DNA from: an uncultured Hyphomicrobium sp.
GTDB lineage: Bacteria; Pseudomonadota; Alphaproteobacteria; Rhizobiales; Hyphomicrobiaceae
Direction: 5' to 3'
Assembly (NCBI RefSeq): GCF_902826555.1
Contig: NZ_CADEFI010000015.1
Coordinates: 1 to 40,576 of the forward strand
DNA length: 40,576 bases
A program made the position numbers and the translations under genes. How positions within the stretch are numbered: the first letter of the stretch is position 1; each line of letters starts with the position of its first letter. Below, piece by piece: positions 6,751 to 31,553 of the stretch. The notes beneath the pieces are model-generated. The model was not told where the DNA came from, ran no database searches, and saw nothing but the letters and a program-made list of their open reading frames with translations.

Positions 6751-6772
6751 GGGCGAGAACCTCCGCCCACCT

Positions 6773-6807: not shown

Positions 6808-6837
6808 TGTGTGCCCAAATCGGGGGCACGCAACGCG

Positions 6838-7416: not shown

Positions 7417-7453
7417 AGCGCGGTCGAGTTTGGAATCGGGCCGTGCTCTAGGG
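7414..7453. repeat. Imperfect palindrome after the adenosyltransferase gene
   Basis: CTAGAGCGCGGTC at the left pairs imperfectly with GGCCGTGCTCTAG at the right around a short centre. It begins at the stop codon. The CTAGAGC ends match the edges of the dispersed Hyphomicrobiales-type repeats. It could form a hairpin in the transcript but has no T-run. Confidence 0.5.
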
Positions 7454-7546
7454 CGTTGAAGAGACCAACGATTTACGCTTCGGGGCCGGCAGGGCCGAAG
7501 CTGTCATGGTCTGAGGCCGGATCGGCCAGAGGTGGGGGCGTTTACG

Positions 7547-8248: not shown

Positions 8249-8277
8249 TAACGGCGGATAGCCCTCTGTTGGCCGCA

Positions 8278-8306
8278 TTGACTTAGCCCGAGACGGCTCG
8301 TAGTTT
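8278..8306 (+). promoter_or_regulatory. Candidate promoter for etfB-etfA-hbd
   Basis: TTGACT (8278-8283) and TAGTTT (8301-8306) are separated by 17 bases, close to a sigma-70 type promoter. It lies in a 245-base gap, about 190 bases before the etfB start. The -10 match is only moderate. Confidence 0.35.
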
Positions 8307-8493
8307 CCTTTTCTCGCACTTGCGAAGAGCCCGGAACGTCATAGGCCGAGGCGTTGGCTCAAGTGCCAGTAAACGGAGACCGGCGGCACGGTGGAGCCGC
8401 AATTCCAGTCTCCCGCGGGCAGATCTCGGGACGAAACAAAACCAGGACAGCAATGACAAGAACAAGGCAGTGCGCCGGGGAGCGCCGCGCATC

Positions 8494-10194: not shown

Positions 10195-10228
10195 GGGCAC
10201 AGATGCCGGGACAACAAGGACGCTCACC

Positions 10229-11158: not shown

Positions 11159-11209
11159 CGCCGTGCCGGGCTTTTGCAGAACGGCGCATAGAGCCGTCGG
11201 CCTCAAGAT

Positions 11210-11968
11210 ATGAGCCGGGCAAACAAAGTCGCACTCGTCACGGGGGCCGGCAGCGGCATCGGTCGCGCCGTTGCGGTGGCGCTCTTCGAGGCCGGCTTCG
11301 ACGTGGTGCTGGCGGGGCGGCGGCAGGCGCCGCTCGACGAGACGGCGGCACGTTGCAGAACGCGTCCGGGGCGCGTGCTCGCGCTGGCGACCGACATCGC
11401 CGATGCGCCGGAGGTCTCACGTCTCTTTGAGACGACGAAGGCGACGCTGGGAGGCGTCGACGTTCTTTTCAACAATGCCGGCCTTTCCGCGCCAGCCGTC
11501 CCGTTCGAAGATCTCACACTCGAGCAATGGCAGGCGGTCGTGAACGTCAACCTGACGGGTGCCTTTCTGTGCGCGCAGGCGGCGTTCCGGATCATGAAGG
11601 CGCAGAGCCCGATGGGCGGAAGGATCATCAACAACGGGTCCATCTCGGCGACCGTGCCGCGCCCGTTCTCGGCGCCTTATACCGCGACCAAGCACGCCAT
11701 TACGGGCCTCACGAAGTCGCTGTCTCTGGATGGGCGGCGCTACGATATCGCGTGCTCGCAAATCGATATCGGCAATGCGGCGACGGAGATGACGGAGCCG
11801 ATGGCGGCCGGCGCCATCCAAGCCGACGGCAGCATCCGGCCAGAGCCGCGCATGGACGTCAGCCACGTGGCCGATGCGGTGGTCTCCATTGCGCTTTTGC
11901 CGCTGTCGGCAAATGTGCAGTTCATGACACTCATGGCCACGAAGATGCCGTTTATCGGTAGAGGATGA
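11210..11968 (+). CDS. SDR family oxidoreductase
   Basis: This is a 252-residue classical short-chain dehydrogenase/reductase. The nucleotide-binding [11 protein letters not shown] (residues 11-21), structural NNAG (88-91), a Ser in the NNGSISAT strand and the catalytic YTATK (Y157, K161) are all present. The coenzyme loop AGRR (35-38), with two Arg, suggests a preference for NADP, which is inference. The substrate cannot be read from the sequence. It lies 51 bases after the hydroxybutyryl-CoA dehydrogenase gene on the same strand and may be the last gene of that unit. Confidence 0.88.
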
Positions 11969-12054
11969 CGGGGGGCCGGTTGCGTTCGCTGGGCCGCTCG
12001 CCTACATCTGGGCGAGATTATTGTCTTGCTTCAGCCTTCGGGGGGCTGAGCCCG

Positions 12055-12438
12055 ATGTTTTCTGATCTTTCCAAGTGGTCTTATCGGCTTGCGCTTTGCA
12101 GCGTGTTCGCGCTTGGCGGTTGTGCCAGCATGATGGATTTCGCAGGCGTTCCCCGTGCGGGCTATCAAGCCAACGGGACCTATGTCGTTAGCGGCGAGGA
12201 GGAGAAGCTCGCTTGCCGGCAGATCAAGGACCGGCTCGAGATCCTGAGCCGCGAGCTTCAGACGTTGCCGCAACAAGCCGCCTATGAACGCGAGAATACG
12301 CCTGCAACGGTGGGGTCTGCGATCGGACGCATGTTTGGCGGACCCGACGCCGGCCTGGATGCGACCAAGGAATATCAACGGGCTCAGGCTGAAAGCGACG
12401 CGCTCAAGGGGCTGCTCGCCAGGAAGCAGTGTGTGTGA
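12055..12438 (+). CDS. Small lipoprotein of unknown function
   Basis: This encodes a 127-residue predicted lipoprotein. A short signal sequence ends in a lipobox ALGGC with the acylated Cys at residue 23. The mature part contains a helical stretch (EEEKLACRQIKDRLEILSRELQTL) and two further Cys residues, one of them close to the C-terminus. The start at 12055 is chosen because a GGGGGG-type ribosome site lies just upstream and the protein then begins with the signal sequence. No family was recognised. It converges on the first PepSY-like gene. Confidence 0.7.
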   Translation: MFSDLSKWSYRLALCSVFALGGCASMMDFAGVPRAGYQANGTYVVSGEEEKLACRQIKDRLEILSRELQTLPQQAAYERENTPATVGSAIGRMFGGPDAGLDATKEYQRAQAESDALKGLLARKQCV

Positions 12439-12440
12439 GC

Positions 12441-12480
12441 AAAAAAGGAGAGCGCACGAGCCCTGCGGCCGTGCGCTCTC
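12441..12480 (-). terminator. Terminator of the PepSY-like gene on the minus strand
   Basis: There is a perfect 11-bp stem (GAGAGCGCACG at 12448-12458, CGTGCGCTCTC at 12470-12480) with an 11-base loop. On the minus strand it is followed at once by CC and six T, so it ends the PepSY-like transcript. It may also stop the convergent lipoprotein transcript, though there is no T-run in that direction. Confidence 0.85.
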
Positions 12481-12504
12481 AAGACATGCGGCTTTCAGTT
12501 TGGA

Positions 12505-12771
12505 TCACTCGCGCTCGCGCTTGATGATATTGCCGCCGCGAATGTCGATGTCGTAGACGCCGCCGTTGGCGTGCCGTGCATCGTCGACCTCGAACTTGCG
12601 GTCGTCGCGATCGAATTCGATCCTCCTCCAGGAGGTATATCCGTTCGCTCTCAGGATGCTGCCGATCTCGGCGCGCTCGGCTGGCGTGGCCGGACGGTCA
12701 TCGGCGGAAGCGCTCGTTGTGATGGCAGCGGCGGTGAAGGCCACGGCGAGGCCAATCATGATTTTTTGCAT
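12505..12771 (-). CDS. Small secreted PepSY-type protein 1
   Basis: This encodes an 88-residue protein with a clear signal peptide (MQKIMIGLAVAFTAAAITTSASA, cleaved near residue 23) and a compact mature domain. That domain carries the PepSY-like pattern of a helix (PAERAEIGSILRANGY), then strands with W, EFDRDDRKFEV, and an ending of GGVYDIDIRGGNIIKRE. PepSY modules are small periplasmic inhibitor or binding domains. A CTGACA-N5-CTGACA direct repeat lies 112 bases upstream in the same orientation, matching one upstream of another PepSY gene here. I therefore infer that it belongs to the regulon of the neighbouring two-component system. Confidence 0.8.
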   Translation of the reverse strand: MQKIMIGLAVAFTAAAITTSASADDRPATPAERAEIGSILRANGYTSWRRIEFDRDDRKFEVDDARHANGGVYDIDIRGGNIIKRERE

Positions 12772-12883
12772 TGATCATCTCTCTATCTATTCGGATCGGA
12801 ACACTTCGGAGCGGCGCGGCGGATGGCTTGGCTCCGATTGGCTCACTCTGGACGAGAGGCTCTGACGCGCCCCTGATGGGAGC

Positions 12884-12900
12884 TGTCAGTGAATTGTCAG
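12884..12900 (-). promoter_or_regulatory. Direct-repeat box upstream of PepSY gene 1
   Basis: On the minus strand this reads CTGACA-N5-CTGACA: two perfect 6-base half-sites with an 11-base period. This is the geometry used by OmpR/PhoP-type response regulators. It overlaps the stop codon of the histidine kinase gene. It points towards the PepSY gene that starts at 12771 and matches the box at 15289-15305. Confidence 0.6.
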
Positions 12901-14276
12901 GTTGGCCGGGCGCGCTGGCGCGCAACGCTGTCCGTCGGAAAGTGCAATGTGGCGACGAGCCCGGGATCGGCATTCGCAAGCGACAGCGCGCCGCCCCAGG
13001 ATTCAGCGATCTCCGTCACGATGGCGAGCCCAAGTCCCGCGCCGGAGCCGCGTTCGTCGAGGCGTCCTCCGCGTCGGAGCGCCTCTGCGAGGAGTCCCTC
13101 GGGAATGCCCGGTCCATCGTCGGCAATGACGAGTGCGACGCCGGCGGCATCCTTGCGGCCGGTCACCGTTACGGTGTGCCGGGCATGGCGTGCGGCGTTC
13201 TCGATCAAATTGCCTGCGGCCTCGGAGAGGTCGTCCTGGTCCACGGGAGCCACGAGATCGGCAGGCACCTCGACAATCCAGTCGAGTCGCTCGCCTTCCG
13301 GAGTGCGTTGGACGACGCGCGTGATCTGATCGACCGCTGAAGCGACGTTGGCTTGCGAGTCGCGGTGAGGCGAAGAGAGCCGCACGCGGGCGAGCTCGCG
13401 CTCGACCGTGCGCTGCATGGTGCGGGTGACCGTGGACAGGTTGAGAGCGACGGCCGCCTGACCGTCTTTGGCCAAGCCTTCGATCTCGGACTGGAGGACC
13501 TGAAGCGGCGTGCGAAGCCCGTGTGCGAGATCTCCGGCGCGCGTCTTGGCGCGTGCGAGCTCCGCATCGCGCGCGTCGATCAGAGCATCTATCTCATGGA
13601 CCAACGGACGAACCTCGTCCGGGAATTCGGAACCGAGCCGGCGGGTCTTGCCGGAGCGGACATCTGCGAGCCGGGTGCGGACCGCCGAGAGCGGACGCAG
13701 ACCGATCGTGACCTGCACCCACGCGGCGGCCAGCAGCAGTGTCCCGAGAATCGTGAGGAGCGGCGTCAGATCGGCGGCGAAGTTGCGCACCGCGGTCGCG
13801 ATCTCGGCCGTGTCCCAGGCGACGGCGATGCGTGCCGTGCCACCGCCCATACGCGCCGGCAGCTCAATACGCCGCTGCAAAAGGTAGAGCTCGGTCTTGG
13901 CGGGACCTGGGATGCGATGGTGGTGGATGGTGTCGTCCACACTGGCCTCGGCAGGCAAGGCAAGCTCGGAGTCCCAGAGCGAACGCGAGCGGAGCACGGC
14001 GCCGTTCTGCTCGTGGACGATCTGCCAGTAGAGGCCCGACAACGGCACGTCGAAGCGTGGGTCCGCCGGCGGCGTCGAGAGCGTGAGGCGGTTCTCTCCC
14101 GCCGGCTCGAGGTGGGCCGTGAGCTGGTTCAAGTGCACGGCGAGCTCGGTATCGATGCGGCGCTCGACGTGGCGCTCGAACAGGACGGTGAGACCGTAGC
14201 CCGCCAGGCCGAGCGCGATGGCCGTCGAAGCGGCGCCGGCGATCAGCAATCTCAGGCGCAGCGAGCTGAGGGTCAT
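12897..14276 (-). CDS. PhoQ-like sensor histidine kinase
   Basis: This is a 459-residue inner-membrane sensor kinase. It has two membrane spans (about 9-33 and 170-193) flanking a periplasmic sensor region of about 135 residues, a HAMP-like linker, a dimerisation domain with the phospho-acceptor His in DLAHGLRTPLQ (H252), and a catalytic ATPase domain. The N box (AAGNLIENAARHA, 353-365), G1 box (DDGPGIP, 386-392) and G2 box (GAGLGLAIV, 412-420) are intact. The DLAHGLRTPL form of the H box is shared with PhoQ-type kinases. The start overlaps the stop of the response regulator gene by 4 bases. The periplasmic signal is unknown; PepSY proteins or divalent cations are possible. Confidence 0.93.
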   Translation of the reverse strand: MTLSSLRLRLLIAGAASTAIALGLAGYGLTVLFERHVERRIDTELAVHLNQLTAHLEPAGENRLTLSTPPADPRFDVPLSGLYWQIVHEQNGAVLRSRSLWDSELALPAEASVDDTIHHHRIPGPAKTELYLLQRRIELPARMGGGTARIAVAWDTAEIATAVRNFAADLTPLLTILGTLLLAAAWVQVTIGLRPLSAVRTRLADVRSGKTRRLGSEFPDEVRPLVHEIDALIDARDAELARAKTRAGDLAHGLRTPLQVLQSEIEGLAKDGQAAVALNLSTVTRTMQRTVERELARVRLSSPHRDSQANVASAVDQITRVVQRTPEGERLDWIVEVPADLVAPVDQDDLSEAAGNLIENAARHARHTVTVTGRKDAAGVALVIADDGPGIPEGLLAEALRRGGRLDERGSGAGLGLAIVTEIAESWGGALSLANADPGLVATLHFPTDSVARQRARPT

Positions 14277-19727: not shown

Positions 19728-20663
19728 TTATCCGCGGGCGACAGTGGCAACGTGGATCGGAAACTCAGGTGTCGCCATCAGCGCCTTGCAACGCTCGAAG
19801 CGGCCGGTGGCGTAGGCCCAAAAATCGTCGGCCGGATTTTGGTTGGCGTGCTGGATCAAACCCCAGAGGGTCCACAACAGGTCGCACATGGCTTTGTAGA
19901 TGACGACGCGACCGTGCTCGGCGGGGCTCGGCGGACCGCCGAAATAGGCGGCGATGAACTCGGCTTCCTTGTCGGGGGCGAGCTTCGCCTCGACGATCAC
20001 GTCGCCGAGGTCCCAGAGCGGATCGTTCATGCCCGAGTACTCCCAATCGACGAGCCACATGCGGCCGCCGGCATCGATGAAGTTCTCGGACAGCGGGTCG
20101 CAATGGCAGGGGGCTAGCGGCAGAGGATGCGCGTTCAGGGCCTGGCGCACAGCCTCGGCGGATTTGAGCACGTCGTGGTAGCCCTCGGGAAGGTCCACCG
20201 TCTTGCCGGAAAGGATCTTCAAGTAGTCGTCGATCATGGCGAACAGCTCGAAGCGGAAGTCAAACGTCTCGCCGCTGGTGTGCAGCTTGCGCAGGACATT
20301 GGCTGCGCGGGTCGGTGCACCCGGGATGGTCGCGAAGCCCTCGGGCGACAACGTGACGGCGTTCGGAATGGCGGCCATCAGCATCAGGCCATCGCCGGTG
20401 GTGGCAAGCACCTCGGGGCTCACGCCCGCGCGTGCGGCTGCGCGTGCGGCGACGGCTTCGACTTTGCGGTTGATGTATTCCTCGGTGCCCTTGCCGGGGA
20501 TGCGTAGCACATAATCGCGATGGGGGTTGCCAATCAGATAGACCCGGTTCGTCAGGCCGCCAAGGCGAGTGACGGTCGCTTCGCTGCCCTCGACGGCATT
20601 GCGGATGCCGAGCCGGTCGAGCGCGGCGCCGATGTCGCTGAGGTCCTGGTCGATGACGCCCAT
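19728..20663 (-). CDS. Choline/ethanolamine kinase-like phosphotransferase, copy 1
   Basis: This is a 311-residue protein of the APH/choline kinase superfamily. The Gly-containing N-lobe strand pair (VTRLGGLTNRVYLIG, YVLRIPGKGTEEYINR), the catalytic HCDPLSEN (H187, D189, N194) and the metal-binding WLVDWEYSG (D206) are intact, and the TNRVY and DWEYSGMNDPLWDLG motifs point to the choline/ethanolamine kinase subgroup. It lies 24 bases downstream of the FAD-GcvT dehydrogenase on the same strand, so they form an operon. A paralogue accompanies the other dehydrogenase on the opposite arm. The substrate is not known; an amino alcohol or a methylated amine derivative fits the context. Confidence 0.85.
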   Translation of the reverse strand: MGVIDQDLSDIGAALDRLGIRNAVEGSEATVTRLGGLTNRVYLIGNPHRDYVLRIPGKGTEEYINRKVEAVAARAAARAGVSPEVLATTGDGLMLMAAIPNAVTLSPEGFATIPGAPTRAANVLRKLHTSGETFDFRFELFAMIDDYLKILSGKTVDLPEGYHDVLKSAEAVRQALNAHPLPLAPCHCDPLSENFIDAGGRMWLVDWEYSGMNDPLWDLGDVIVEAKLAPDKEAEFIAAYFGGPPSPAEHGRVVIYKAMCDLLWTLWGLIQHANQNPADDFWAYATGRFERCKALMATPEFPIHVATVARG

Positions 20664-20687
20664 TGTCCCACTCCCTCACTGTTGCCG

Positions 20688-23108
20688 CTAGGAGAGTAGT
20701 CTTTCGTTGGCCGGGTCGTAAATCGTGCGTGCGACGCGTGTTGCGGGATAGGTGACGCCGAACGCCTCGATCGAGAAGCCTTGAGCGTCGGCAAGCTCTG
20801 TCGGCAGCCAACCGAAGGCGATGGTCTTGCCGACCGTGTGACCGAAGCTCGTGCTTGCGGTCTGGCCGACGACGCGGCCATCATGCAGGATCGTCTCGCC
20901 GCCATGGAAGGGTGCGAAGCCGTCGACTGTGAAGGAGCAGAGCAGGCGCTTGGATCCCGTGGTGTGGATCGCTTCGATGGCGGAGCGGCCGATGAAGTCT
21001 TTGGTCATATCTACCGTGCCTTCGAGGCCGGCGGAGATGGGATCGTTGTCGGGACCGATCTCGGCGGACCAGTAGACGTAGCCCTTTTCGAGGCGACAGG
21101 TCTCGATGGCCCGATAGCCGATATCCCTTATGCCGAAGGCGGCACCGGCGGCCTTGAGCGCCTCGTAGAGCGCGGGCGCGTATTCGGCCGGCGCATGCAG
21201 CTCGTAGCCGAGCTCGCCGACGTAGCCGACGCGGACGGCGCGCACCGGAACGTGTCCGACCTCGATGTCGCGCACGGCCAGGAACGGGAATGCCGCGTTC
21301 GAGAGGTCGTTGTCGGAGAGCGCCTGTAGCACGTCGCGTGAGCGCGGGCCGCAGAGATTGAGCACGGCCCAGGCAGAGGTGACGTCACGGATGGCGACGG
21401 AGCCGTTTGCCGGAAGATTGCGGCGCACCCAGCTCGAATCGCGCACGCCGAATGCCGATCCCGAGATCATCATGAAGCGCTCCGGTCCGAGATGCAGCAG
21501 CGTGACCTCGGCCTCGATGCCGCCCTTGGCGTTGAGAAGGGTCGTGTAGATGCAGCGGCCGGGGTCGCCTGCAATGCGGTTGGCCGCAATTCTTTCGAGG
21601 GCAGCCGTCGCGCCCGCTCCATCGATTTCGAATTTCGAGAACGAGGTCTGGTCGATGAGGGCGGCGGATTGGCGGATGTGGCGATGCTCGGCACCGACGG
21701 CGTCGAACCAACTCGGCTTTTCCTCGAAGCTCGATGTCTCGTCGCGGGAGGTCCCGGGCGCGGCGAACCACAGCGGGCGCTCCCAGCCGAAACGGGCACC
21801 GAAGACGGCGCCTGACTGTTCGAGATGGGCGTGCACGGCCGACCGGCGCAGGCCGCGTCCCGCGACCGTTTCCTCGGCGGGCCAGTGTATTTTGTAGTAA
21901 CTGCCGTAAGCCTCGATGGCACGATCTTCGAGGTAGCGCCCGGTGGCATGGGGGGTGCCGAAACGGCGCACGTCGAATGCCCAGAGGTCCATGCCGGGGT
22001 CGCCATAAAGGATCCAGTTGGCCATGGCCTCGCCGGCGCCGCCCGAGGCTGCAATGCCGGCGGTGAATCCGCAGGCGACATAGAAATTGTCGAGCTCAGG
22101 GGCGAGGCCCATGATCGGCTCGCCATCGGCAGAGACGGGAATGGGGCCGTTGATGATGGTCTGGATGCCGATCGTGTTGAGCACCGGCAGGCGCTCGGCG
22201 CACGGAAGCGCGAACAGCTCCAGACGCTCCAAGTTCTCGGCAAACAGCTCGCGCCCGAAGGCAAACGGTGGGCGTGAGCGCCAGCAGCCCTTGGTGCCAT
22301 CCTCCCAGCCGCCGATGGCGAAGGCGCCGACATCCGGCTTCAGGTAGAAATTTTTGTCGGGATCGCGCAGCGTGGGCAGTGTCCTTGGCAGGTCGAGTTT
22401 CTTCTCGGTCAAGAAGTACTGATGCTCGACGACGCCTGCCGCAAGCGCGACGCCAGCGAGCTCGCCGAGACGCTTGGCCCACAGCCCTGCGCAATTGACG
22501 AGGATCTCGCAGCCGATGGTGCCGTGATCGGTGGCGACGCCGGTGACGCGGCGGCCTTCCGTCAGGATCTCCGTGACGCAGACGCCTTCCTGGATCGTGA
22601 CGCCGGACTTGCGGGCGGCAGCGGCATAGGCGTGCGTCAGCGCGTAGGGATCGACGTAGCCGTCGGAGGGAATGAACGCCGCGCCGACGACGCCGTCGGG
22701 TTCGATGTAGGGGAAGAGATCCTTGGCTTCGGACGCGGAGAGCGCGTGGCATTCGAAGCCGAAGCTCTTGGCCAGCGTCATGGAGCGGCGGATCTCGCTC
22801 CACCTCTCCGGCGACGATGCAAGGCGCAGCGAGCCGACTTTGCGCCAGTCGATGGGAAGGCCCGATTCCGCTTCGAGGCGGTCGAACACGGCGACGGAGT
22901 TCTGCATCAGCCGGGTGAGGTTGCGCCGCCCGCGAAGCTGGCCGACGAGGCCGGCGGCGTGCCAGGTGCAGCCGTCGGTGATGTGTGATTTCTCGAGAAC
23001 GAGCACGTCGCGCTCGCCGCGGCGGCCGAGATGATAAGCGAGCGAACAGCCGATGGCGCCGCCGCCGACGATCACGATGCGGGCGTGCCTGTCGAACGGT
23101 TGCGGCAT
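20688..23108 (-). CDS. Dimethylglycine/sarcosine dehydrogenase-like FAD-GcvT enzyme, copy 1
   Basis: This 806-residue protein has the architecture of dimethylglycine and sarcosine dehydrogenases. An N-terminal DAO-type FAD domain (VIVGGGAIGCSLAYHLG at about 11-28) carries the TWHAAGL motif, whose His (H50) binds FAD covalently in this family. A linker domain and a C-terminal GcvT/aminomethyltransferase folate domain follow (from about 430; SKFEIDG, GYVGELGYELHAP, GYRAIETCRLEKGY). Such enzymes remove N-methyl groups, pass electrons to ETF and formaldehyde equivalents to tetrahydrofolate. It starts 25 bases after the DeoR regulator gene and precedes the kinase gene. It is paralogous along its whole length to the 816-residue protein at 29103; the two may act on successive methyl groups. 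Confidence 0.9.
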   Translation of the reverse strand: MPQPFDRHARIVIVGGGAIGCSLAYHLGRRGERDVLVLEKSHITDGCTWHAAGLVGQLRGRRNLTRLMQNSVAVFDRLEAESGLPIDWRKVGSLRLASSPERWSEIRRSMTLAKSFGFECHALSASEAKDLFPYIEPDGVVGAAFIPSDGYVDPYALTHAYAAAARKSGVTIQEGVCVTEILTEGRRVTGVATDHGTIGCEILVNCAGLWAKRLGELAGVALAAGVVEHQYFLTEKKLDLPRTLPTLRDPDKNFYLKPDVGAFAIGGWEDGTKGCWRSRPPFAFGRELFAENLERLELFALPCAERLPVLNTIGIQTIINGPIPVSADGEPIMGLAPELDNFYVACGFTAGIAASGGAGEAMANWILYGDPGMDLWAFDVRRFGTPHATGRYLEDRAIEAYGSYYKIHWPAEETVAGRGLRRSAVHAHLEQSGAVFGARFGWERPLWFAAPGTSRDETSSFEEKPSWFDAVGAEHRHIRQSAALIDQTSFSKFEIDGAGATAALERIAANRIAGDPGRCIYTTLLNAKGGIEAEVTLLHLGPERFMMISGSAFGVRDSSWVRRNLPANGSVAIRDVTSAWAVLNLCGPRSRDVLQALSDNDLSNAAFPFLAVRDIEVGHVPVRAVRVGYVGELGYELHAPAEYAPALYEALKAAGAAFGIRDIGYRAIETCRLEKGYVYWSAEIGPDNDPISAGLEGTVDMTKDFIGRSAIEAIHTTGSKRLLCSFTVDGFAPFHGGETILHDGRVVGQTASTSFGHTVGKTIAFGWLPTELADAQGFSIEAFGVTYPATRVARTIYDPANERLLS

Positions 23109-23133
23109 GAGGTGTCCTGTCTCGGGGCTTCGA

Positions 23134-23922
23134 TCAATTCGGCTCGGCGGAATGGGAAAGCGCGGCGACGAGGGTTTGAGTGCCCGCCGCTTCGAGCTTC
23201 TCGCGCAGCGCGGCGGGTGGCGCCTCGTCCGTCACGAGTGTCGCAATCGGCTCGAAGCCGCATACGCGCACGCGTGCCTTGGCAGTGAACTTCCAAGCGT
23301 CGGCGGCAACGATCGTGCGGTCCGCCCGATCGATCATGGCGCGTGCGACGCGGGCCTCGTCGATGTCGAAATCCATGTAGCCGTCCTTGGCGTCGATGGC
23401 ACCCATGGAGAGAATGGCGAGATCGGCGCGGAACTCATTGATCAGCTCGATGGCCTCCTGTCCAGCGGCAGCGCCGATGTCGGCGCGGAGTGCGCCGCCA
23501 GCGAGCTGCACGGCGCAGTCGCTGCGGCCGAGCAGCATGCGGGCGATCTCAATGGAATTGGTGACGACGGTAAGACCGCTTCTCTGCTGCAAGGCCTCGG
23601 CGACGTAGGTGGTGGTGGAACCGGAGTCGATGAGCAGCGTCATGCCATCGGAAACCAGTGCTGCCACGGATTTGGCGATGGCACGCTTGGCGGTGATCCG
23701 CTCCTTGATGCGGCGGGAGAACGGCGGCTCGGCAAGAGCGCCGGCCAGCACGACGCCGCCGTGCACGCGATGAACGGTCCCCTGCTCCACAAGATCCTTC
23801 ACGTGACGGCGCACGGTCTCGTCGGAGACGTTGAGGCGCTCAGCGAGCGAGGTGATCGACTCGCGGCCGGTGACGCGCAGCGCATCGAGGATGGCGCTTT
23901 GCCATCGTGTCGGAACATTCAT
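23134..23922 (-). CDS. DeoR-family transcriptional regulator
   Basis: This is a 262-residue DeoR-type repressor. The N-terminal winged helix-turn-helix is at about residues 8-60 (ESITSLAERLNVSDETVRRHVKDLVEQGTVHRVHGG). A DeoRC sugar-phosphate-isomerase-like effector domain follows (SDGMTLLIDSGSTTTYVAEAL, VVTNSIEIARML, LAGGALRADIGAAAGQEAIELI, KDGYMDFDIDEARVARAMIDRADRTIVAADAWKF). DeoR regulators usually sense phosphorylated metabolites, which fits the two kinases in the cluster. The start at 23922 has a GGGAGA site upstream. It heads the minus arm and is divergent from the ABC importer genes. Confidence 0.92.
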   Translation of the reverse strand: MNVPTRWQSAILDALRVTGRESITSLAERLNVSDETVRRHVKDLVEQGTVHRVHGGVVLAGALAEPPFSRRIKERITAKRAIAKSVAALVSDGMTLLIDSGSTTTYVAEALQQRSGLTVVTNSIEIARMLLGRSDCAVQLAGGALRADIGAAAGQEAIELINEFRADLAILSMGAIDAKDGYMDFDIDEARVARAMIDRADRTIVAADAWKFTAKARVRVCGFEPIATLVTDEAPPAALREKLEAAGTQTLVAALSHSAEPN

Positions 23923-23988
23923 GGGCCGCGTCTCCCGGCAATTTGCTTGAGAGTCGGGCAAAGAACCACAAAAAGCAACAAGGATGTG

Positions 23989-24006
23989 GAATGTTTATTG
24001 ACATTC
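23989..24006. promoter_or_regulatory. Candidate operator overlapping a -35 box
   Basis: There is a perfect palindrome GAATGT-N6-ACATTC in the 203-base gap between the regulator and the importer genes. A consensus TTGACA (23998-24003) overlaps its right half, though the expected -10 is poor. Flanking TGTGG and CCACA copies add further symmetry. This is the best candidate for binding of the DeoR-type regulator. Confidence 0.5.
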
Positions 24007-24125
24007 TGTGGGATCGTGGGACGCTGAGCGTGCGCTTGCAGGCAGCCTCTAACTCGAAGTTTGCAGCGGCCGCCCGTCCTGCGCAGGGAGTTTGTCGGTC
24101 CTCACAACGCAAAATCGGGTGAAAA

Positions 24126-25076
24126 ATGGTGATGCTTCGCTCCTCGGCCGCGCTGGCGGCTCTTGCGCTCGCCTCCGTCCTGCCGCCACCGGCTCTGGCG
24201 GAGGACTCCAAAGACCCTATCAAGATCACGCTTCACGATTGGACGGGCCAGCTCGTCAGCGCCCACATCATGGGTGAGGTGCTGAAGAAGGCCGGGCTCA
24301 ACATCGAATACGTGCAGGCCGACTACTTGGCGCAGTTCGCGGGACTGAAGACCGGCGACGTGCACTTGGCGATGGAGATCTGGGCCACGACCGGCAAGGA
24401 CGCGCTCGAAGAGGCGGTCGGCACCAAGCAGGTCGAGAACCTCGGCGAGACGGGAATGCTCGCCATCGAGGAGTGGTGGTTTCCCGAGTACATGAAAGAG
24501 AAGTGTCCCGAACTTCCGAAGTGGGAAGCGCTCAAGACCTGTGCCGAGGCCTTCAGCACGCCGGAGACCGCGCCCAAGGGGCGCTATGTCGGCGGCCCGG
24601 TAACGTGGGGCGGCTTCGACGAGGAGCGCGTGGCGGCGCTCGATTTGCCGTTCGAGGTGGTGCACGCCGGCACGGACGCCGCTCTGTTCGCCGAGCTCGA
24701 GTCAGCCTACCAGCGCAAGGCGCCGGTCATCCTGTGGGTCTACGCGCCGCATTGGGCGCCGATCAAGTACAAGGGCGAGTGGATCGAATTCCCGAAGTAC
24801 GAGCCGGCCTGCTACACCGATCCCGCCTGGGGCATCAACAAAGAGAAGACCCACGATTGCGGCAAGCCGCGCGGGCCGATCTGGAAGGCCGCATGGGCGG
24901 GTCTCAAGGATAAGTGGCCGTCGGCCTACACGGCCATCAAGGGCTTCAACATCACCAACGACGAAATGGGCAAGCTGGTCGGTGACATCGACCTGGATGC
25001 CAAGAAGCTCGACGACGTGGTCGCCGAGTGGATCAAGGCCAATGAGGCCCGCTGGAAAAAGTGGATCTCGGGCTAA
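24126..25076 (+). CDS. Glycine betaine/proline-type ABC importer, substrate-binding protein
   Basis: This is a 316-residue periplasmic binding protein of the OpuAC/ProX family. A signal peptide is cleaved after about residue 25 (PPALA-ED). Conserved binding-protein stretches are ITLHDWTGQLVSAHIMGEVLKKAG, AQFAGLKTGDVHLAMEIWATTG and RKAPVILWVYAPHWAPIKY. Several Trp and Tyr residues could form the aromatic box that holds a quaternary ammonium group. Two Cys pairs (around KCPELPKWEALKTC and the ACYTDPAWG...HDCGK region) may form disulfides. It is the first gene of the plus arm. The ligand could be betaine, dimethylglycine, choline or a related methylated amine. Confidence 0.9.
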   Translation: MVMLRSSAALAALALASVLPPPALAEDSKDPIKITLHDWTGQLVSAHIMGEVLKKAGLNIEYVQADYLAQFAGLKTGDVHLAMEIWATTGKDALEEAVGTKQVENLGETGMLAIEEWWFPEYMKEKCPELPKWEALKTCAEAFSTPETAPKGRYVGGPVTWGGFDEERVAALDLPFEVVHAGTDAALFAELESAYQRKAPVILWVYAPHWAPIKYKGEWIEFPKYEPACYTDPAWGINKEKTHDCGKPRGPIWKAAWAGLKDKWPSAYTAIKGFNITNDEMGKLVGDIDLDAKKLDDVVAEWIKANEARWKKWISG

Positions 25077-25179
25077 TCTGCTCCGCCGGGCTCCGGGCTG
25101 TGGGCTCGCGCCGATTTCGAGGTGCGAGCCTTCATTCAGGGCGTCGTGATCCAAATCCATCTCGCGCCGGACATCGTGC

Positions 25180-26208
25180 ATGACCAACGCCGCTCTTGTT
25201 TGCCGGAACCTCTGGAAGCTCTACGGGCCGGATCCGAAGGGCTTTCTGAGCCAGCACGCGTCGCAGCCCAGCGATGCCGCCATCAAGGCGGCGGGCTACG
25301 TGGCGGCGGTCGCGGATGCGTCCATCGAGGTGGAGCGCGGCGAGATCTTCGTCATCATGGGGCTCTCGGGCTCCGGCAAGTCCACGCTCGTGCGTTGCCT
25401 GTCGCGGCTCATCGAGCCGACCGGCGGCTCCGTCGCATTCGACGGAGTCGATCTTCTGGCCGCGACGCCGGAGGATCTGATCGAGCTGCGGCGGCACAAG
25501 ATGGGCATGGTGTTTCAGCACTTCGCGCTGTTGCCCCATCTTTCGGTGCTCGACAACGTCGCATTTCCACTCGAGATCCGCGGGCTCGGACGGCGCGAGC
25601 GCGAAAAGCCGGCGCGCGAGATGATCGAGCTCGTGGGGCTTGCGGGCCGCGAGCATAACCTTCCGCACCAGCTATCCGGCGGGCAGCAGCAGCGTGTCGG
25701 CATCGCGCGATCTCTGATCACCAATCCCGATATCTGGTTTCTCGACGAGCCGTTCTCGGCGCTCGATCCGCTGATCCGGCGCGAGATGCAGAACGAGTTC
25801 ATGCGGCTGCAGGACACGCTGCACAAGACCATCGTCTTTATCACGCATGATTTCGACGAGGCCGTGCGGGTCGGCGACCGAATTGCCATCATGCGCGACG
25901 GGCGCGTGGTGCAGGTCGGCACGCCGGAAGATCTCGTGCGCGCGCCGGCCGATGCCTACGTTGCCGAGTTCACGCGGGAAGCGCCGCGAAGCAAGATTCT
26001 CTCCGCGCGTGCCATCATGCGCGACGTGAAGGCCGGCGAGGCCGTTGCCGGAACGATCGGCGCGGGGATGAAGGTTGGGGAGTTCGCGGCGCGCGTCGAG
26101 GCCTCCGACTTGCCGTTCGGTGTGGCGGACGAAGCTGGGCGGCAGATCGGCGTCGTCGATCGGCAGACCGTCATGCGCGTGCTCGTCGGCGCCGAGGAGC
26201 GCCAATGA
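25180..26208 (+). CDS. Glycine betaine/proline-type ABC importer, ATP-binding protein
   Basis: This is a 342-residue ABC ATPase of the ProV/OpuAA type. Walker A is GLSGSGKST, followed by the Q-loop FQHFALLPHLSVLDNV, signature LSGGQQQRVGIAR, Walker B IWFLDEPFSALDPL and H-loop ITHDFDEA. The ProV-like N-terminal insertion before Walker A (GPDPKGFLSQHASQPSDAAIKAAGYVAAVADASIEVE) is present. The C-terminal tail of about 70 residues has a single CBS-like stretch (GVADEAGRQIGVVDRQTVMRVLVG) instead of the usual tandem CBS pair. The stop overlaps the permease start by 4 bases. Confidence 0.93.
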   Translation: MTNAALVCRNLWKLYGPDPKGFLSQHASQPSDAAIKAAGYVAAVADASIEVERGEIFVIMGLSGSGKSTLVRCLSRLIEPTGGSVAFDGVDLLAATPEDLIELRRHKMGMVFQHFALLPHLSVLDNVAFPLEIRGLGRREREKPAREMIELVGLAGREHNLPHQLSGGQQQRVGIARSLITNPDIWFLDEPFSALDPLIRREMQNEFMRLQDTLHKTIVFITHDFDEAVRVGDRIAIMRDGRVVQVGTPEDLVRAPADAYVAEFTREAPRSKILSARAIMRDVKAGEAVAGTIGAGMKVGEFAARVEASDLPFGVADEAGRQIGVVDRQTVMRVLVGAEERQ

Positions 26209-28214
26209 CGGCCGCGGCGGTGGAGAGCAAGCCGGCCGGTACGGAGGTGCGGTTCAGTCCGACCGCCCCGGTGTTCGGCGCGTTCGTCGCGCTGGCGTTC
26301 CTCGCGTTCTTGTTCACGGATCGCCTTCCCGGCTGGATGAGCGAGCTTCCTCAAGCCTGGCGGCTCGGGCTCGATAGCGGCATTTCGAACGCCATGAAGT
26401 GGCTCGTCGAGCAGGCGAGCTTCGGCCTGTTCACGTTCAAGGACATGACGCGCGCGATTGCGGACGTGCTCAACATTCCGCTGGATGTTGCGACTTCCAT
26501 TTTCTCCACCGGCCTGCAGCAAGGCCGCGGGTCAGCGGCCGTGCGGCTCGCGCCGCCCCTGCCGTGGGTGGCCGTGATCGGTATCGTCGCGGCCCTCGGA
26601 TACCGTTTCGGCGGCCGGCGGCTCGCGCTGCTTGCCGGCGGCGCATTCCTCTATCTCGCGGTTTTCGGGCAGTGGGCGAGCGCAATGACCACGCTGTCGT
26701 CAATCGTGGTGGCGGCGCCGCTCGGTATTCTCGTCGGCGTGGTCACGGGCGTGATCGGCTATCGCGTGCCGCTGTTCAAGCGGATCATTGGGCCGGTTCT
26801 CGATCTCATGCAGACGGTGCCGACCTTCGCCTATCTTATTCCAATCCTGTTCCTGTTCGGGTTCGGACCGGTGGCTGCGATGATCGCCACCATGATTTAC
26901 GCGGCGCCGCCGATGGTGAGGGTGACGATGGCGGCGCTCGACGGCGTGCCGCGCGAGATCGTCGAGTATGGCACCATGGCGGGGACGACGCCGCGCCAGA
27001 TGATCCTCAAGGTGATGCTGCCCGCGGCGCGACCTCAGCTTCTCGTTGGCGTCAATCAGGTGATCATGCTGTCGCTCAACATGGTGATCATCGCCTCGAT
27101 GATCGGTGCGGGCGGTCTCGGCTTCGATGTCCTGACCAGCCTCAGGAGGCTCGATATCGGGCGCGGGCTCGAGGCCGGGCTTGCGATCGTGATGCTCGCC
27201 ATCGCGCTCGACCGCCTGAGCCAAGCCTATGCGGAGGGCGCGCGCCTGCGAGATGCGCAAGGCGGAGGGCGGCGCTTTTTCCTGGGGCTCGCTGCATTTG
27301 TCGTGGCGGCCTATGTGCTCGGGCTTTTTCTGCCGTTCGTCGCGACCTATCCAGAAGCACTGCAATTCTCCACGGCGCCGTTCTGGTCCGCGGCCGTGCA
27401 ATGGATCAACGTGCATTTCTTCGACTTCTTCGACGCCATAAAAACGTTCCTGCTCCTGAACCTCCTGCTTCCGGTCAAGCGGTTCATGCTGGCCCAGCCG
27501 TGGCCTCTGGTGATCGCGGCGCTTGCCACAGCAGGCTGGTGGCTTAGCGGCTGGCGGCTGGCCTCGCTCGTTTCGGCGCTGGCGCTGTTCGTCGTCCTCA
27601 ACGGGCAGTGGGAGTTTGCGATGGTGAGCGTGTATCTGTGCGCCGTTGCAGTCTTTTTCGCGGCTTTGATCGGCGTTCCGCTCGGCATCTATTCGGGCCT
27701 CAATCCGAAGGCGTGGCGCATCGTCGAGCCGGTCATCGACACACTGCAGACGCTGCCGAGCTTCGTCTATCTCATTCCGGCCGTGATGCTGTTCCGCGTC
27801 GGCGACTTCACGGCCATTCTTGCCATCGTGCTCTACGCGTTGGCGCCGGCAGTGCGCTTCTCGGCGCACGGGATCCGGCAGGTCCCGGAAATGCTCACCG
27901 AAGCCGGGACCTCGATGGGATGCACGTCGCGGCAAATCCTGCGGCGAATCCAGCTTCCGGTTGCGCTACCGACCATCCTCCTGGGACTCAATCAGACGGT
28001 GATGCTGGCGCTTTCCATGCTGGTGATCACCGCGTTGGTCGGGACGCGGGATCTCGGGCAGCAGGTCTACATGGCGCTGACGAAGGCCGATACGGGGAAG
28101 GGTCTCGTGGCCGGGTTGTGCGTTGCGGCCATCGCCATCGTGGCGGACCGCTTGATCCAGGGCGGAGCGAGCCGCCTAGCCGCGCAGCGCAGGGGAGCCG
28201 GCGATGCAGCCTGA
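26205..28214 (+). CDS. ABC importer permease with two fused ProW-type domains
   Basis: This is a 669-residue inner-membrane protein with two complete ProW/OpuAB permease domains in one chain (about residues 145-345 and 470-655). Each half carries its own ATPase-coupling EAA-like loop: GTMAGTTPRQMILKVMLPAARPQLLVG in the first, GTSMGCTSRQILRRIQLPVALPTILLG in the second. Each is followed by a NQVIMLSLNMVIIASMIG / NQTVMLALSMLVITALVG segment. Usual importers use a homodimer of one domain, so here the pore would be a single fused chain with the ATPase dimer. The N-terminus has an extra span and the mid-part several more. The gene overlaps the ATPase by 4 bases and the kinase by 11. Confidence 0.93.
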   Translation: MTAAAVESKPAGTEVRFSPTAPVFGAFVALAFLAFLFTDRLPGWMSELPQAWRLGLDSGISNAMKWLVEQASFGLFTFKDMTRAIADVLNIPLDVATSIFSTGLQQGRGSAAVRLAPPLPWVAVIGIVAALGYRFGGRRLALLAGGAFLYLAVFGQWASAMTTLSSIVVAAPLGILVGVVTGVIGYRVPLFKRIIGPVLDLMQTVPTFAYLIPILFLFGFGPVAAMIATMIYAAPPMVRVTMAALDGVPREIVEYGTMAGTTPRQMILKVMLPAARPQLLVGVNQVIMLSLNMVIIASMIGAGGLGFDVLTSLRRLDIGRGLEAGLAIVMLAIALDRLSQAYAEGARLRDAQGGGRRFFLGLAAFVVAAYVLGLFLPFVATYPEALQFSTAPFWSAAVQWINVHFFDFFDAIKTFLLLNLLLPVKRFMLAQPWPLVIAALATAGWWLSGWRLASLVSALALFVVLNGQWEFAMVSVYLCAVAVFFAALIGVPLGIYSGLNPKAWRIVEPVIDTLQTLPSFVYLIPAVMLFRVGDFTAILAIVLYALAPAVRFSAHGIRQVPEMLTEAGTSMGCTSRQILRRIQLPVALPTILLGLNQTVMLALSMLVITALVGTRDLGQQVYMALTKADTGKGLVAGLCVAAIAIVADRLIQGGASRLAAQRRGAGDAA

Positions 28215-29106
28215 TCTGGCAATCGATCCGTTGGTGGAACGGGTGACGCGTCTCGACATCTGGTTCGGACGCGTCGATCCCGAGCCGCTGCTCGGCGGGA
28301 TCACGAACAAGAACTTTGTCGTTTGCGACCGCGGCAAGAAGTATGTGGTGCGCACCGGTGGCGACATTCTCGTGCATGGCGTCGTGCGGGCCAATGAGCT
28401 GGCAGCGACGCGGGCGGCGCATGCGGCGGGGATCAGCCCCGCGGTCCTCCATGCGGAGCCCGGCATCATGGTCATCGACTTCATCGAAGGGCGCACGTTC
28501 ACGCCTGACGATGTGCGCAATGCCGCGAATTTCGATCGGCTGGTGGATCTCGTTCGGCGTTGCCATCGCGACGTGGCGCTTCACCTGCGCGGACCGGCGC
28601 CGATGTTCTGGCCGTTCCATGTCATTCGCGACTATGCGCATACGCTGCGCGAGGGCGGAAGCCGCCACCATGCGCTGCTTCCGGATCTGCTCGCGCGGGC
28701 GCAGGCTTTGGAAGTGGCGGTCGGGCCGATCGATGTCGTGTTCGGCCATAACGACCTTCTGGCGGCGAACATTCTCGACGACGGCACCAAGCTGTGGCTG
28801 CTCGACTGGGAGTATGCCGGTTTCAACTCGCCTCTGTTCGATCTCGGGGGGCTGGCGTCGAACAGTGAGATGCCGGCGGAGATGGCGGAAACGCTGGTCT
28901 CCGCTTATTTCCAGCGACCGGTCGATGACGCTCTGCGTCGTCAGGCGGCTGCCATGACGTCGGCCTCGCTTCTCCGCGAAACGCTGTGGGCGATGGTGTC
29001 GGAGATCCATTCCACCGTCGATTTCGACTACGCGGCTTATACGGCCGAGAATCTCGCGCGCTTCGACGCGTCCTATGCCCGATACAAGACCATGGAGAGA
29101 ACATGA
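28204..29106 (+). CDS. Choline/ethanolamine kinase-like phosphotransferase, copy 2
   Basis: This is a 300-residue APH/choline kinase superfamily protein. GGITNKNFVV and KYVVRTGGD form the N-lobe, GHNDLLAANIL gives the catalytic H182, D184 and N189, and LWLLDWEYAGFNSPLFDLGGLAS gives the metal ligand D201 and the choline-kinase-type DWEYAG motif. All catalytic residues are kept. The start overlaps the permease gene by 11 bases and the stop overlaps the dehydrogenase start by 4, so it is tightly bound into the importer-dehydrogenase operon. It is paralogous to the protein at 19728-20663 but diverged, which suggests distinct substrates. Confidence 0.87.
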   Translation: MQPDLAIDPLVERVTRLDIWFGRVDPEPLLGGITNKNFVVCDRGKKYVVRTGGDILVHGVVRANELAATRAAHAAGISPAVLHAEPGIMVIDFIEGRTFTPDDVRNAANFDRLVDLVRRCHRDVALHLRGPAPMFWPFHVIRDYAHTLREGGSRHHALLPDLLARAQALEVAVGPIDVVFGHNDLLAANILDDGTKLWLLDWEYAGFNSPLFDLGGLASNSEMPAEMAETLVSAYFQRPVDDALRRQAAAMTSASLLRETLWAMVSEIHSTVDFDYAAYTAENLARFDASYARYKTMERT

Positions 29107-31553
29107 GCGAGCTGCCAACGTCGGCCAAGTTCGTCATCATCGGTGGCGGAATCGTCGGATGCTCGACGGCCTATCATCTCGGCAAGATGGGGTTCAAGGA
29201 TGTGCTGCTGCTCGAGCGCGGTCAGCTCACATCGGGTTCGACGTGGCATGCAGCCGGGCTCGTCGGCCAGCTCCGGTCGAGCGCGAACATCACGCAACTG
29301 CTCGGGTATTCTGTAGCCTTGTACGACCGGCTAGAGGCAGAGACCGGCCTGGCCACGGGTTGGAAGCGGAATGGAGGTTTGCGGCTTGCCTGTAATGCGG
29401 AACGCTGGACGGAGGTGAAGCGGCAGGCCACGACCGCCAAGTCGTTCGGCCTCGACATGCAGCTCCTCACGCCCAAGGAAGCGCAGGCGCTATGGCCGCT
29501 GATGCAGGTGGACGACGTCGTCGGTGCGGCCTTCCTGCCGACCGATGGGCAGGCGTCACCATCCGACATCACGATGTCGCTGGCGCGGGGGGCGCGGCAA
29601 GGCGGCGTGACCATCAAGGAAGGCGTGAGCGTCACCAGCATCGAGGTCGAGGGCGGCGTCGTGCGCGCGGTGGTGACCGACAAGGGGCGTGTTGCCTGCG
29701 AGAAGCTCGTGATCTGCGGCGGGCAGTGGTCGCGCCAGATCGGCCAGCTGGCAGGGGTCAACATTCCGCTGGTGTCGATGCAGCATCAGTACCTGATCAC
29801 GGAAAAGATCGACGGCGTGACGCCGGGATTGCCGACCCTGCGCGATCCGGATCGCCTCACGTACTGGAAGGAAGAGGTTGGCGGTCTCGTCATGGGCGGC
29901 TACGAGCCCAATCCGAAGCCGTGGTCGGAAACGAAGCTTGGCGAGCCGTTCGCGTTTCAACTTCTGGACAATGACCTCGAGCACTTCGAGCCACTGCTCG
30001 AGCTGGCCGCCGGGCGCGTCCCGGCCATGCAGACGGCCGGTATCCGCCAGTTCATCAACGGTCCCGAGAGCTTCACACCCGACGGCAATTTCATCCTGGG
30101 CGAGGCCCCGGAGGTACGGAACATCTTTGTCGGCGCCGGTTTCAACGCGTTCGGTATCGCGGCCGGCGGCGGGGCCGGCATGGCGCTCGCCGAGTGGGTT
30201 GCCAAGGGCGAGCCGCCGTATGACCTGTGGCCGGTCGATATCCGCCGTTTCGGGCGCAATCACGTCGACACGAATTGGGTGCGTACGCGCACGATGGAAG
30301 CCTACGCCAAACACTACACGATGGCGTGGCCGCACGAGGAGCATCACTCCGGCCGGCCGCTTCGCCGTTCGCCTCTCTATGACCGATTGCTCGCGCAGGG
30401 GGCCGTGTTCGGCGAGAAGCTCGGCTGGGAGCGACCCAACTGGTTTGCCGACGTCAAGGCGGGCGAGGCGGCGCAGGACACCTACAGCTACGCCCGGCAG
30501 AACTGGTTCGAGGCTGTGAAGCGCGAGCATACCGCTGCGCGCGAGCGTGTTGCGGTATTCGACCAGACCTCGTTCGCCAAGTTCATGCTGGTGGGGCGCG
30601 ACGCGGAGCAAGCGCTGTCCTGGATTGCCGCCAACGACGTCTCCAAGGAGCCGGGCCGCCTCGTCTATACGCAGATGTTGAATACAAAGGGCGGCATCGA
30701 GTGCGACCTGACGGTCGGCCGGCTGGCGGCGGACACCTACTACATCGTCACCGGGACGGGGTTCGCCACGCACGACTTCGATTGGATCAGCCGCTCTATC
30801 CCGGCAGGACTCGACGCGCGGCTCGTCGACCTGACCTCGGCCTACGGCGTCTTGGCGGTGATGGGGCCGCGCACGCGCGATGTGTTGTCGGCGCTCTCGT
30901 CGGATGATCTTTCCAATGCGGGCTTTCCGTTCGGACGAATCCGCCGCATCACCCTCGCCGGGGCGCCGGTGATTGCGCTCAGGGTGACCTATGTCGGCGA
31001 ACTCGGCTGGGAGCTGCACATCCCGGTGGAGTTCATGACCGCCGTGTACGAGGCGTTGATGGCGGAAGGTGCCAAGCACGGCATCGCCAACGCGGGGTAC
31101 CGGGCCATCGAGTCGCTCAGGCTCGAGAAGGGCTATCGCGCCTGGGGATCGGAGATCGGGCCGGACCATTCTCCGTTGGTGGCGGGACTTGGCTGGGCCG
31201 TGAAGTTGAAATCGAACACGCCATTCCAGGGTCGCGAGGCGATTGCTGCGCAGGCGGCCAAGCCGTTGCCGCGGCTGCTCACCTGTTTCACGACAGATCC
31301 GTCCGTGGTGCTGCTGGGCCGCGAAACGATTTATCGCAACGGTGAGCGTGTCGGCTGGCTTGCGAGCGGCGGCTTCGGCTATACGGTCGGCCGTTCGGTC
31401 GGCTATGGCTATGTGCGACGGCCGGAGCTGGGTGTGGACGCGGATTTCGTGCTCTCGGGGTCCTATGAGCTCGAGGTGGCGACAGAGCGCATTCCGGCGG
31501 CGGTCTCGCTCGAACCTCTCTACGATCCGGCGAATGCCAGGATCCGCGGCTAG
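29103..31553 (+). CDS. Dimethylglycine/sarcosine dehydrogenase-like FAD-GcvT enzyme, copy 2
   Basis: This is an 816-residue paralogue of the protein at 20688-23108, with the same layout. The FAD domain has VIIGGGIVGCSTAYHLG and STWHAAGL (H49, the expected covalent FAD attachment). A linker with GIRQFINGPESFTPDGNFILGEAPEVRN follows, then a C-terminal GcvT folate domain (SFAKFMLVG, VTYVGELGWELHIP, GYRAIESLRLEKGYRAWGSEIGPD). The start ATG at 29103 overlaps the kinase stop. The reaction is presumably oxidative N-demethylation coupled to ETF and tetrahydrofolate. It is the last gene of the plus arm. Dimethylglycine, sarcosine or another methylated amino acid could be the substrate. Confidence 0.9.
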   Translation: MSELPTSAKFVIIGGGIVGCSTAYHLGKMGFKDVLLLERGQLTSGSTWHAAGLVGQLRSSANITQLLGYSVALYDRLEAETGLATGWKRNGGLRLACNAERWTEVKRQATTAKSFGLDMQLLTPKEAQALWPLMQVDDVVGAAFLPTDGQASPSDITMSLARGARQGGVTIKEGVSVTSIEVEGGVVRAVVTDKGRVACEKLVICGGQWSRQIGQLAGVNIPLVSMQHQYLITEKIDGVTPGLPTLRDPDRLTYWKEEVGGLVMGGYEPNPKPWSETKLGEPFAFQLLDNDLEHFEPLLELAAGRVPAMQTAGIRQFINGPESFTPDGNFILGEAPEVRNIFVGAGFNAFGIAAGGGAGMALAEWVAKGEPPYDLWPVDIRRFGRNHVDTNWVRTRTMEAYAKHYTMAWPHEEHHSGRPLRRSPLYDRLLAQGAVFGEKLGWERPNWFADVKAGEAAQDTYSYARQNWFEAVKREHTAARERVAVFDQTSFAKFMLVGRDAEQALSWIAANDVSKEPGRLVYTQMLNTKGGIECDLTVGRLAADTYYIVTGTGFATHDFDWISRSIPAGLDARLVDLTSAYGVLAVMGPRTRDVLSALSSDDLSNAGFPFGRIRRITLAGAPVIALRVTYVGELGWELHIPVEFMTAVYEALMAEGAKHGIANAGYRAIESLRLEKGYRAWGSEIGPDHSPLVAGLGWAVKLKSNTPFQGREAIAAQAAKPLPRLLTCFTTDPSVVLLGRETIYRNGERVGWLASGGFGYTVGRSVGYGYVRRPELGVDADFVLSGSYELEVATERIPAAVSLEPLYDPANARIRG

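Follow-up and report, generated by a model that had tools for sequence, protein, structure and literature searches.

A conserved pairing of choline/ethanolamine-kinase-like and FAD-GcvT demethylase-like genes in Alphaproteobacteria, with a possible role in the degradation of N-methylated ethanolamines

The stretch of DNA analysed here (the window, 40,576 nucleotides, positions 1 to 40,576 of contig NZ_CADEFI010000015.1, assembly GCF_902826555.1) comes from an uncultured Hyphomicrobium sp. and contains two divergent gene rows, each of which carries a choline/ethanolamine-kinase-like gene (kinA or kinB) next to a gene for an FAD-GcvT N-demethylase-like protein (fadA or fadB). The pairing of the two genes is real, conserved and specific to these FAD-GcvT clades. 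On balance, we consider that the locus probably imports N-methylated ethanolamines and degrades them via phosphorylated amines, yielding ethanolamine; the substrate, the phosphorylated intermediates, the electron acceptor and the ligand of the regulator are points that we infer. N,N-dimethylethanolamine and N-methylethanolamine are the most likely substrates.

The two rows occupy positions 19728-31553 of contig 15 in a genome of 3.72 Mb and 81 contigs. In order of transcription, the minus-strand row consists of deoR, fadA and kinA, and the plus-strand row of genes for a binding protein, an ATPase and a double permease followed by kinB and fadB, with the stop codon of kinB and the start codon of fadB overlapping (ATGA). 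The features are as follows.

19728-20663, minus strand: kinA, choline/ethanolamine-kinase-like protein of 311 amino acids (PF01633, 76.5 bits; PF01636, 72.5 bits)
20688-23108, minus strand: fadA, FAD-GcvT N-demethylase-like protein of 806 amino acids (DAO, FAO_M, GCV_T and GCV_T_C domains)
23134-23922, minus strand: deoR, DeoR-family regulator of 262 amino acids, leading the minus-strand row (HTH_DeoR and DeoRC domains)
23923-24125, no strand: divergent control region, containing the word CCACAAAA at 23966-23973
24126-25076, plus strand: periplasmic binding protein, TmoX-like (OpuAC, 157 bits)
25180-26208, plus strand: ABC ATPase of the ProV/ChoV type (TIGR01186, 346.7 bits, above cut-off)
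26205-28214, plus strand: double permease (two BPD_transp_1 stretches; TIGR03416, 414 bits, above cut-off)
28204-29106, plus strand: kinB, choline/ethanolamine-kinase-like protein of 300 amino acids (PF01633, 68.2 bits)
29103-31553, plus strand: fadB, FAD-GcvT N-demethylase-like protein of 816 amino acids (the domain set of fadA; start checked)

The first-pass annotation had described a mirror-image locus with its arms set around one regulator and one importer. Each arm does hold a kinase and an FAD-GcvT gene, but the gene order differs (fadA then kinA against kinB then fadB), and the regulator belongs to the minus-strand row and the importer to the plus arm only. The reported paralogy between the arms is borne out by identities of 48% for fadA and fadB and 29% for kinA and kinB. 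The catalytic motifs are likewise intact: each kinase has HxDxxxxN (HCDPLSEN, HNDLLAAN) and each flavoprotein has WHAAGL. The types given for the regulator and importer agree with the domain matches listed above.

A scan of a genome collection with a kinB profile yielded at least 558 confirmed relatives, of which the best 80 were retained. With six plasmid loci picked from 125 records and the window itself, these gave a set of 87 loci, in which the genes of the relatives were called with a codon-usage model, the DNA being rich in G+C. In 81 of the 87 loci, fadB follows kinB on the same strand at a median distance of 6 bp. The six exceptions are L052, L068, L086, L096, L103 and L111. In L052 fadA and kinA stand behind kinB, so fadA can replace fadB in position. 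Behind kinB in L068, the place of fadB (11570-13864) is taken by a protein with matches to the large subunit of the xanthine dehydrogenase type, below cut-off. We also drew 289 Alphaproteobacteria evenly as a class sample, in which 34 genomes had kinB (E ≤ 1e-40). Reading by hand, an FAD-GcvT match was located within 100 bp of kinB on the same strand in 25 of the 34, and in G267 and G347 the flavoprotein gene precedes the kinase gene. The pairs span several orders, and their gene ends often overlap. The other pair behaves similarly: fadA is followed by kinA at 11 places in the 87 loci, and all six further fadA genes (L181, L183, L184, L185, L188 and L189) have kinA directly behind them, with a divergent deoR at two of the six (L183 and L185). 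Co-occurrence across genomes, which the first-pass annotation had named in advance as a point on which its proposal could fail, is therefore conserved for both kinases.

The surroundings of other FAD-GcvT paralogues were used for comparison. Twenty stretches were picked by hand, and 20 more were taken down the list with known fadA loci skipped; six of the latter were the further fadA genes, an assignment made here by best BLAST match and not by placement in the tree. No match to kinA or kinB was found in 33 of the remaining 34 stretches (20/20 and 13/14). The exception, L191 (377-6367), has a 32% kinB-like gene, behind a deoR-like gene, at 2.8 kb from an FAD-GcvT gene that is neither fadA nor fadB. 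In the flavoprotein tree, from which L098 was omitted for its weak fadA assignment and very long branch, there is a fadB clade of 24 rows (SH-aLRT 99) and a separate fadA clade of 10 rows (SH-aLRT 100), and an unpaired group of 20 rows (SH-aLRT 99) adjoins the fadB clade. The pairing thus has either two origins or a single loss. The kinases likewise fall into two distinct groups with good support, kinA and kinB, but long branches leave the depth of these groups unsure.

The proposed end product, ethanolamine, is suggested by the genes that accompany the pair. Four enzyme genes of a gamma-glutamyl ethanolamine route are described in Phaeobacter MED193 (PMC10132767). We searched for this route with an iron-type alcohol dehydrogenase of Salipiger (GETADH below), which has amidohydrolase, glutamine-synthetase-like and aldehyde dehydrogenase genes as neighbours, matching the MED193 genes in kind and order; the Salipiger protein itself matched no NCBIfam model at cut-off. 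A set of 60 relatives was scored for kinB at E < 1e-70 (19 genomes, with the weaker G036 and G038 counted as kinB-negative), and GETADH matches of 36-41% identity were left uncounted. Either eutB or GETADH was present in 19/19 kinB genomes and in 20/41 others (Fisher p = 3e-5), and the two occurred together in none of the 19. Among GETADH-negative relatives, eutB was found in 9/9 kinB genomes compared with 11/32 others (p = 5e-4). The eutBC and gamma-glutamyl routes substitute for each other among kinB genomes. In the class sample, 33 of the 34 kinB genomes had an ethanolamine route, compared with 86 of 255 others (p = 2e-13); the lone kinB genome with neither route, G339, has an unpaired kinB, and all 25 genomes with an adjacent pair have a route. 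The genome of the window contains two copies of eutB, both of which have eutC and a gene of the amino-acid permease family nearby; a GETADH-like alcohol dehydrogenase was not found in it at E 1e-60. One eutB copy (C8:37998-39299) has a gene for sarcosine oxidase alpha (C8:28284-31250) at a distance of about 7 kb.

Direct linkage was also found. Relatives of the gamma-glutamyl-route genes (best gene at least 54% identical) flank 7 of 80 loci (L038, L043, L052, L071, L080, L112 and L115), compared with a chance expectation of about 0.3, which is our own estimate from 1.39 Mb examined and about one copy per few-Mb genome. A hand-named subset of 45 loci, 44 of which were searched, already contained all seven, so 7 of 80 is the figure used here for linkage. 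Matches of 25-40% to aldehyde dehydrogenase, glutamine synthetase or amidohydrolase were not counted (L035, L040, L057, L063, L077, L089, L106, L107 and L116). Salipiger L032 and L168 are further loci with route genes alongside. Two loci, L173 and L174, have a GETADH-like gene with a fadB-like gene (53% and 52%, respectively) directly behind it and kinB elsewhere in the genome. In L174 this row (6301-11266), which has no kinase, also includes a glutamine-synthetase-like gene ahead of the GETADH-like gene, with all three genes on one strand. The gamma-glutamyl route and eutBC, linked to or co-occurring with the pair, would be the downstream route; both act on unmethylated ethanolamine, and their genes lie outside the window.

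According to the pathway that we propose, the TmoX-like ABC importer would take up the amine, and KinB and KinA would phosphorylate its hydroxyl group. The phosphate would trap an otherwise permeable amine and would serve as an anionic handle for an enzyme with the fold of dimethylglycine dehydrogenase (DMGDH), as the carboxylate does in dimethylglycine. FadB and FadA would then oxidise the N-methyl groups one at a time, the GcvT half passing the methyl carbon to tetrahydrofolate to give methylene-tetrahydrofolate. A flavoprotein such as the electron-transfer flavoprotein (ETF) would accept the electrons. In some loci a HisN-like phosphatase may dephosphorylate the phosphoethanolamine formed; alternatively, its phosphoryl group may pass to the next substrate molecule, and an exchange like that of the kinase MthK would release ethanolamine without a dedicated phosphatase. 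Free ethanolamine would then be broken down through eutBC in this genome and through the gamma-glutamyl route elsewhere. A phosphorylated intermediate would be the signal for DeoR. The two pairs could divide the work by stage, dimethyl and monomethyl, or by how far the imported amine is methylated.

Phosphorylation ahead of demethylation has a precedent in Eubacterium limosum, in which choline must be phosphorylated by MthK before demethylation by MthB, and MthK also moves phosphate from dimethylaminoethanol phosphate to choline with catalytic ADP (PMC12155760). As in the present locus, a LicA-type choline kinase gene adjoins an N-demethylase gene in that MthK-MthB-MthC-MthA system. Initial phosphorylation and transfer of the methyl carbon to tetrahydrofolate are properties of MthK-MthB that we infer for the locus described here. 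MthB is a cobalamin-dependent enzyme of the MttB family that converts phosphocholine to dimethylaminoethanol phosphate (PMC12155760), whereas the present demethylase is an unrelated FAD-GcvT protein. A cobalamin route in this genome was considered and rejected, as PF06253 (MTTB) had no match. Among the titles and abstract openings that our searches of open-access papers listed, we found no account of a kinase paired with an FAD-GcvT enzyme, nor of such a route in aerobic bacteria. The first-pass annotation had suggested phosphorylated intermediates of a methylated amine or amino alcohol. Co-occurrence with ethanolamine genes and the gene neighbourhood favour an amino-alcohol end product, and the phosphorylated intermediate, for which MthK-MthB is the published model, stays a prediction.

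The importer is consistent with a methylated amine. The best solved relative of its binding protein is 4xz6 (E 1.6e-71), the trimethylamine N-oxide (TMAO)-binding TmoX of Ruegeria pomeroyi, for which seven pocket residues are named (PMC8918994). In an alignment of 32 homologues (one short protein was left out), the cage residues Trp55, Trp102, Glu131 and Trp177 are identical in all 32, while Phe106 is replaced by Gly (29) or Ala (3), Phe220 by Trp (32/32) and Trp222 by Tyr (32/32). The TmoX pocket is thus only partly matched, with four of seven residues identical and three uniformly altered, and our reading is that it forms a putative methylated-ammonium cage with added room. These three altered positions, together with the adjoining kinase and FAD-GcvT genes, distinguish the system from the TmoXWV importer of TMAO. 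As for regulation, a deoR match was found in 42/87 loci. The word CCACAAAA is common to 21 of 40 deoR-divergent regions, several of them from related Rhizobium, and is a possible operator word. An operator search of the divergent control region found no inverted or direct repeat.

Several observations weigh against the methylethanolamine pathway. Sarcosine oxidase alpha (soxA, TIGR01372), used as a control in the class sample, was present in 32/34 kinB genomes and 86/255 others (p = 5e-12); because it correlates almost as strongly, part of the ethanolamine signal reflects a general methylated-amine lifestyle. Since the genomes are related, all these p-values overstate significance. The label GETADH rests on annotation and gene order and not on an alignment to the Phaeobacter protein. 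Of the 34 kinB genomes, nine fall outside the same-strand pairing (seven unpaired, one with the genes nearby on opposite strands, one at a contig edge). An inositol-monophosphatase-family protein, nearest to HisN but below its cut-off, stands at the cluster in seven loci, and the phosphatase link is thereby limited to 7/87. Finally, because importers differ between lineages, the outside compound may differ as well. With regard to soxA, the ethanolamine term improves on soxA (likelihood-ratio p = 1e-5) and soxA improves on ethanolamine (p = 4e-4); within soxA-positive genomes, an ethanolamine route is present in 31/32 with kinB and in 59/86 others (p = 5e-4).

The diversity of importers raises an alternative in which the chemistry is the same and the substrate is another N-methylated amino alcohol or polyol amine, such as an N-methylated aminopropanol or an N-methyl amino sugar. 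An OpuA/TmoX-type binding protein or permease occurs in 38/87 loci. In 11 Rhizobium-type loci (L053, L057, L063, L077, L078, L097, L102, L106, L108, L110 and L116; L053 was scanned and the others assigned by cluster) a CUT1/Ugp-like importer, whose ATPase alone scores above the UgpC cut-off, and a Gfo/Idh/MocA-type dehydrogenase lie by kinB-fadB. In Kaistia and a relative (L044, L051 and L109, with L044 scanned), the importer genes behind fadB are distantly PhnS-like, below cut-off. This variation by lineage speaks for another substrate, but the ethanolamine routes are consistently present and are directly linked in several lineages, and we consider this alternative unlikely.

Ordinary glycine-betaine catabolism is somewhat less likely again. 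In that case the importer would take up betaine, fadA and fadB would act as dehydrogenases of dimethylglycine and sarcosine, and the task of the kinases would be to phosphorylate choline for lipids. Both flavoproteins have the domains of DMGDH and dimethylglycine oxidase (rat 4p9s, Arthrobacter 1pj5), and each is 36% identical to rat DMGDH (544.9 bits for fadB against 4p9s). In the alignment they retain the covalent-FAD His and, at a position placed by us, the His/Tyr dyad named in PMC5082570. No further full-length FAD-GcvT protein was found in the 3.72-Mb genome (E 1e-20), which agrees with a role in betaine catabolism, as does the correlation of kinB with soxA. The tree argues otherwise: fadA and fadB, partnered with kinases, stand in clades apart from rat DMGDH, the sole known DMGDH in the tree, whose group (9 rows, SH-aLRT 100) includes eight proteins from kinB genomes, so those genomes own both kinds of flavoprotein. 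Betaine catabolism would also leave unexplained the tight pairing with a kinase, which is missing from the other FAD-GcvT paralogues.

The kinases belong to the choline/ethanolamine kinase family (LicA, 4r77; Mesorhizobium 3dxq), and both pass the PF01633 cut-off of 29. The choline site of LicA comprises Asp176, Asn181, Asp194, Tyr197, Glu213, Trp251, Trp254 and Tyr268, with Glu213 contacting the quaternary amine (PMC4364537). Residues were compared in 15 kinA and 84 kinB proteins, three kinB rows of 270 amino acids or fewer being left out. The catalytic Asp176, Asn181 and Asp194 are retained in all of them. Three of the four aromatic pocket residues (Tyr197, Trp251 and Tyr268) are kept in both kinA and kinB, and Trp254 is replaced in both. 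The equivalent of Glu213 is Glu in 15/15 kinA and Asn in 84/84 kinB. The full choline pocket is therefore incomplete in both kinases, with Trp254 lost in both and Glu213 also lost in kinB, and the Glu of kinA hints that kinA may act on a more methylated amine. The top NCBIfam match of both kinases, the GntI-like N-oxide kinase NF041256, was rejected, the scores being 147.5 and 151.7 bits against a curated 357. In L035, L067 and L068 (L035 scanned, the others by cluster), kinA has no adjoining fadA and is divergent from a gene for a class I S-adenosylmethionine-dependent methyltransferase.

The Glu in 15/15 kinA and the aromatic cage of the importer could also point to choline as the substrate, with the flavoproteins removing the first methyl group of phosphocholine; we regard this as very improbable. 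DAO-type flavoenzymes require a free lone pair on the amine, which is missing in a quaternary amine, and no MttB-family methyltransferase was found in the genome for the first step. In favour of choline is the use of phosphocholine by Eubacterium limosum (PMC12155760). That the kinases and flavoproteins are functionally unrelated neighbours is scarcely credible, since, despite the 9/34 class-sample kinB genomes with no same-strand adjacent pair, adjacency holds in 81/87 and 25/34 cases, across several orders and with overlapping ends, and likewise for fadA-kinA.

The electron acceptor of the methylethanolamine pathway may be ETF. The window contains etfB-etfA on the plus strand (8497-10194), identified by eye and matching Salipiger genes annotated as ETF at 66% and 62%. 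The first-pass annotation had suggested them as acceptors. They are indeed in the window, but at a distance of about 9.5 kb and beside a gene resembling, by eye, 3-hydroxyacyl-CoA dehydrogenase, so their link to the locus is weak. Elsewhere, ETF genes were close to the pair only in Salipiger L032, directly behind kinB-fadB, and in L167 (G128, a 1.4-Mb genome), where an ETF-quinone oxidoreductase gene and a single gene on the opposite strand intervene. A GMC oxidoreductase gene lies near kinB-fadB in L167, and no ATPase match was seen beside its permease. In Shinella, fadB is followed (L035, 15428-16780) by genes whose annotations read metal/formaldehyde-sensitive repressor and DmeF transporter. 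The taxon labels of two metagenome bins, L046 and L079, are improbable for such genes, and the bins are possibly mislabelled.

More tentatively, a common and so far undescribed aerobic pathway of Alphaproteobacteria, including streamlined 1.4-Mb lineages, may be represented here. Phosphorylated methylethanolamines would be demethylated stepwise by a phosphate-reading enzyme of the DMGDH fold, with the kinases recycling the phosphate of phosphoethanolamine onto new substrate molecules and with free ethanolamine and methylene-tetrahydrofolate as products. Two old kinase lineages would each have joined an FAD-GcvT lineage, or the partner would have been lost between them.

If the methylethanolamine pathway is correct, it would supply, for aerobic bacteria, the missing link between choline-type headgroups and the catabolism of ethanolamine, and would be a source of one-carbon units for methylotroph-like bacteria. 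It would also mean that phosphorylation came to serve as a handle for N-demethylation in two demethylase families that are unrelated. A function would moreover be assigned to a gene pair that the annotated records examined name only by domain or family, and the kinase of which has at least 558 relatives in one genome collection.

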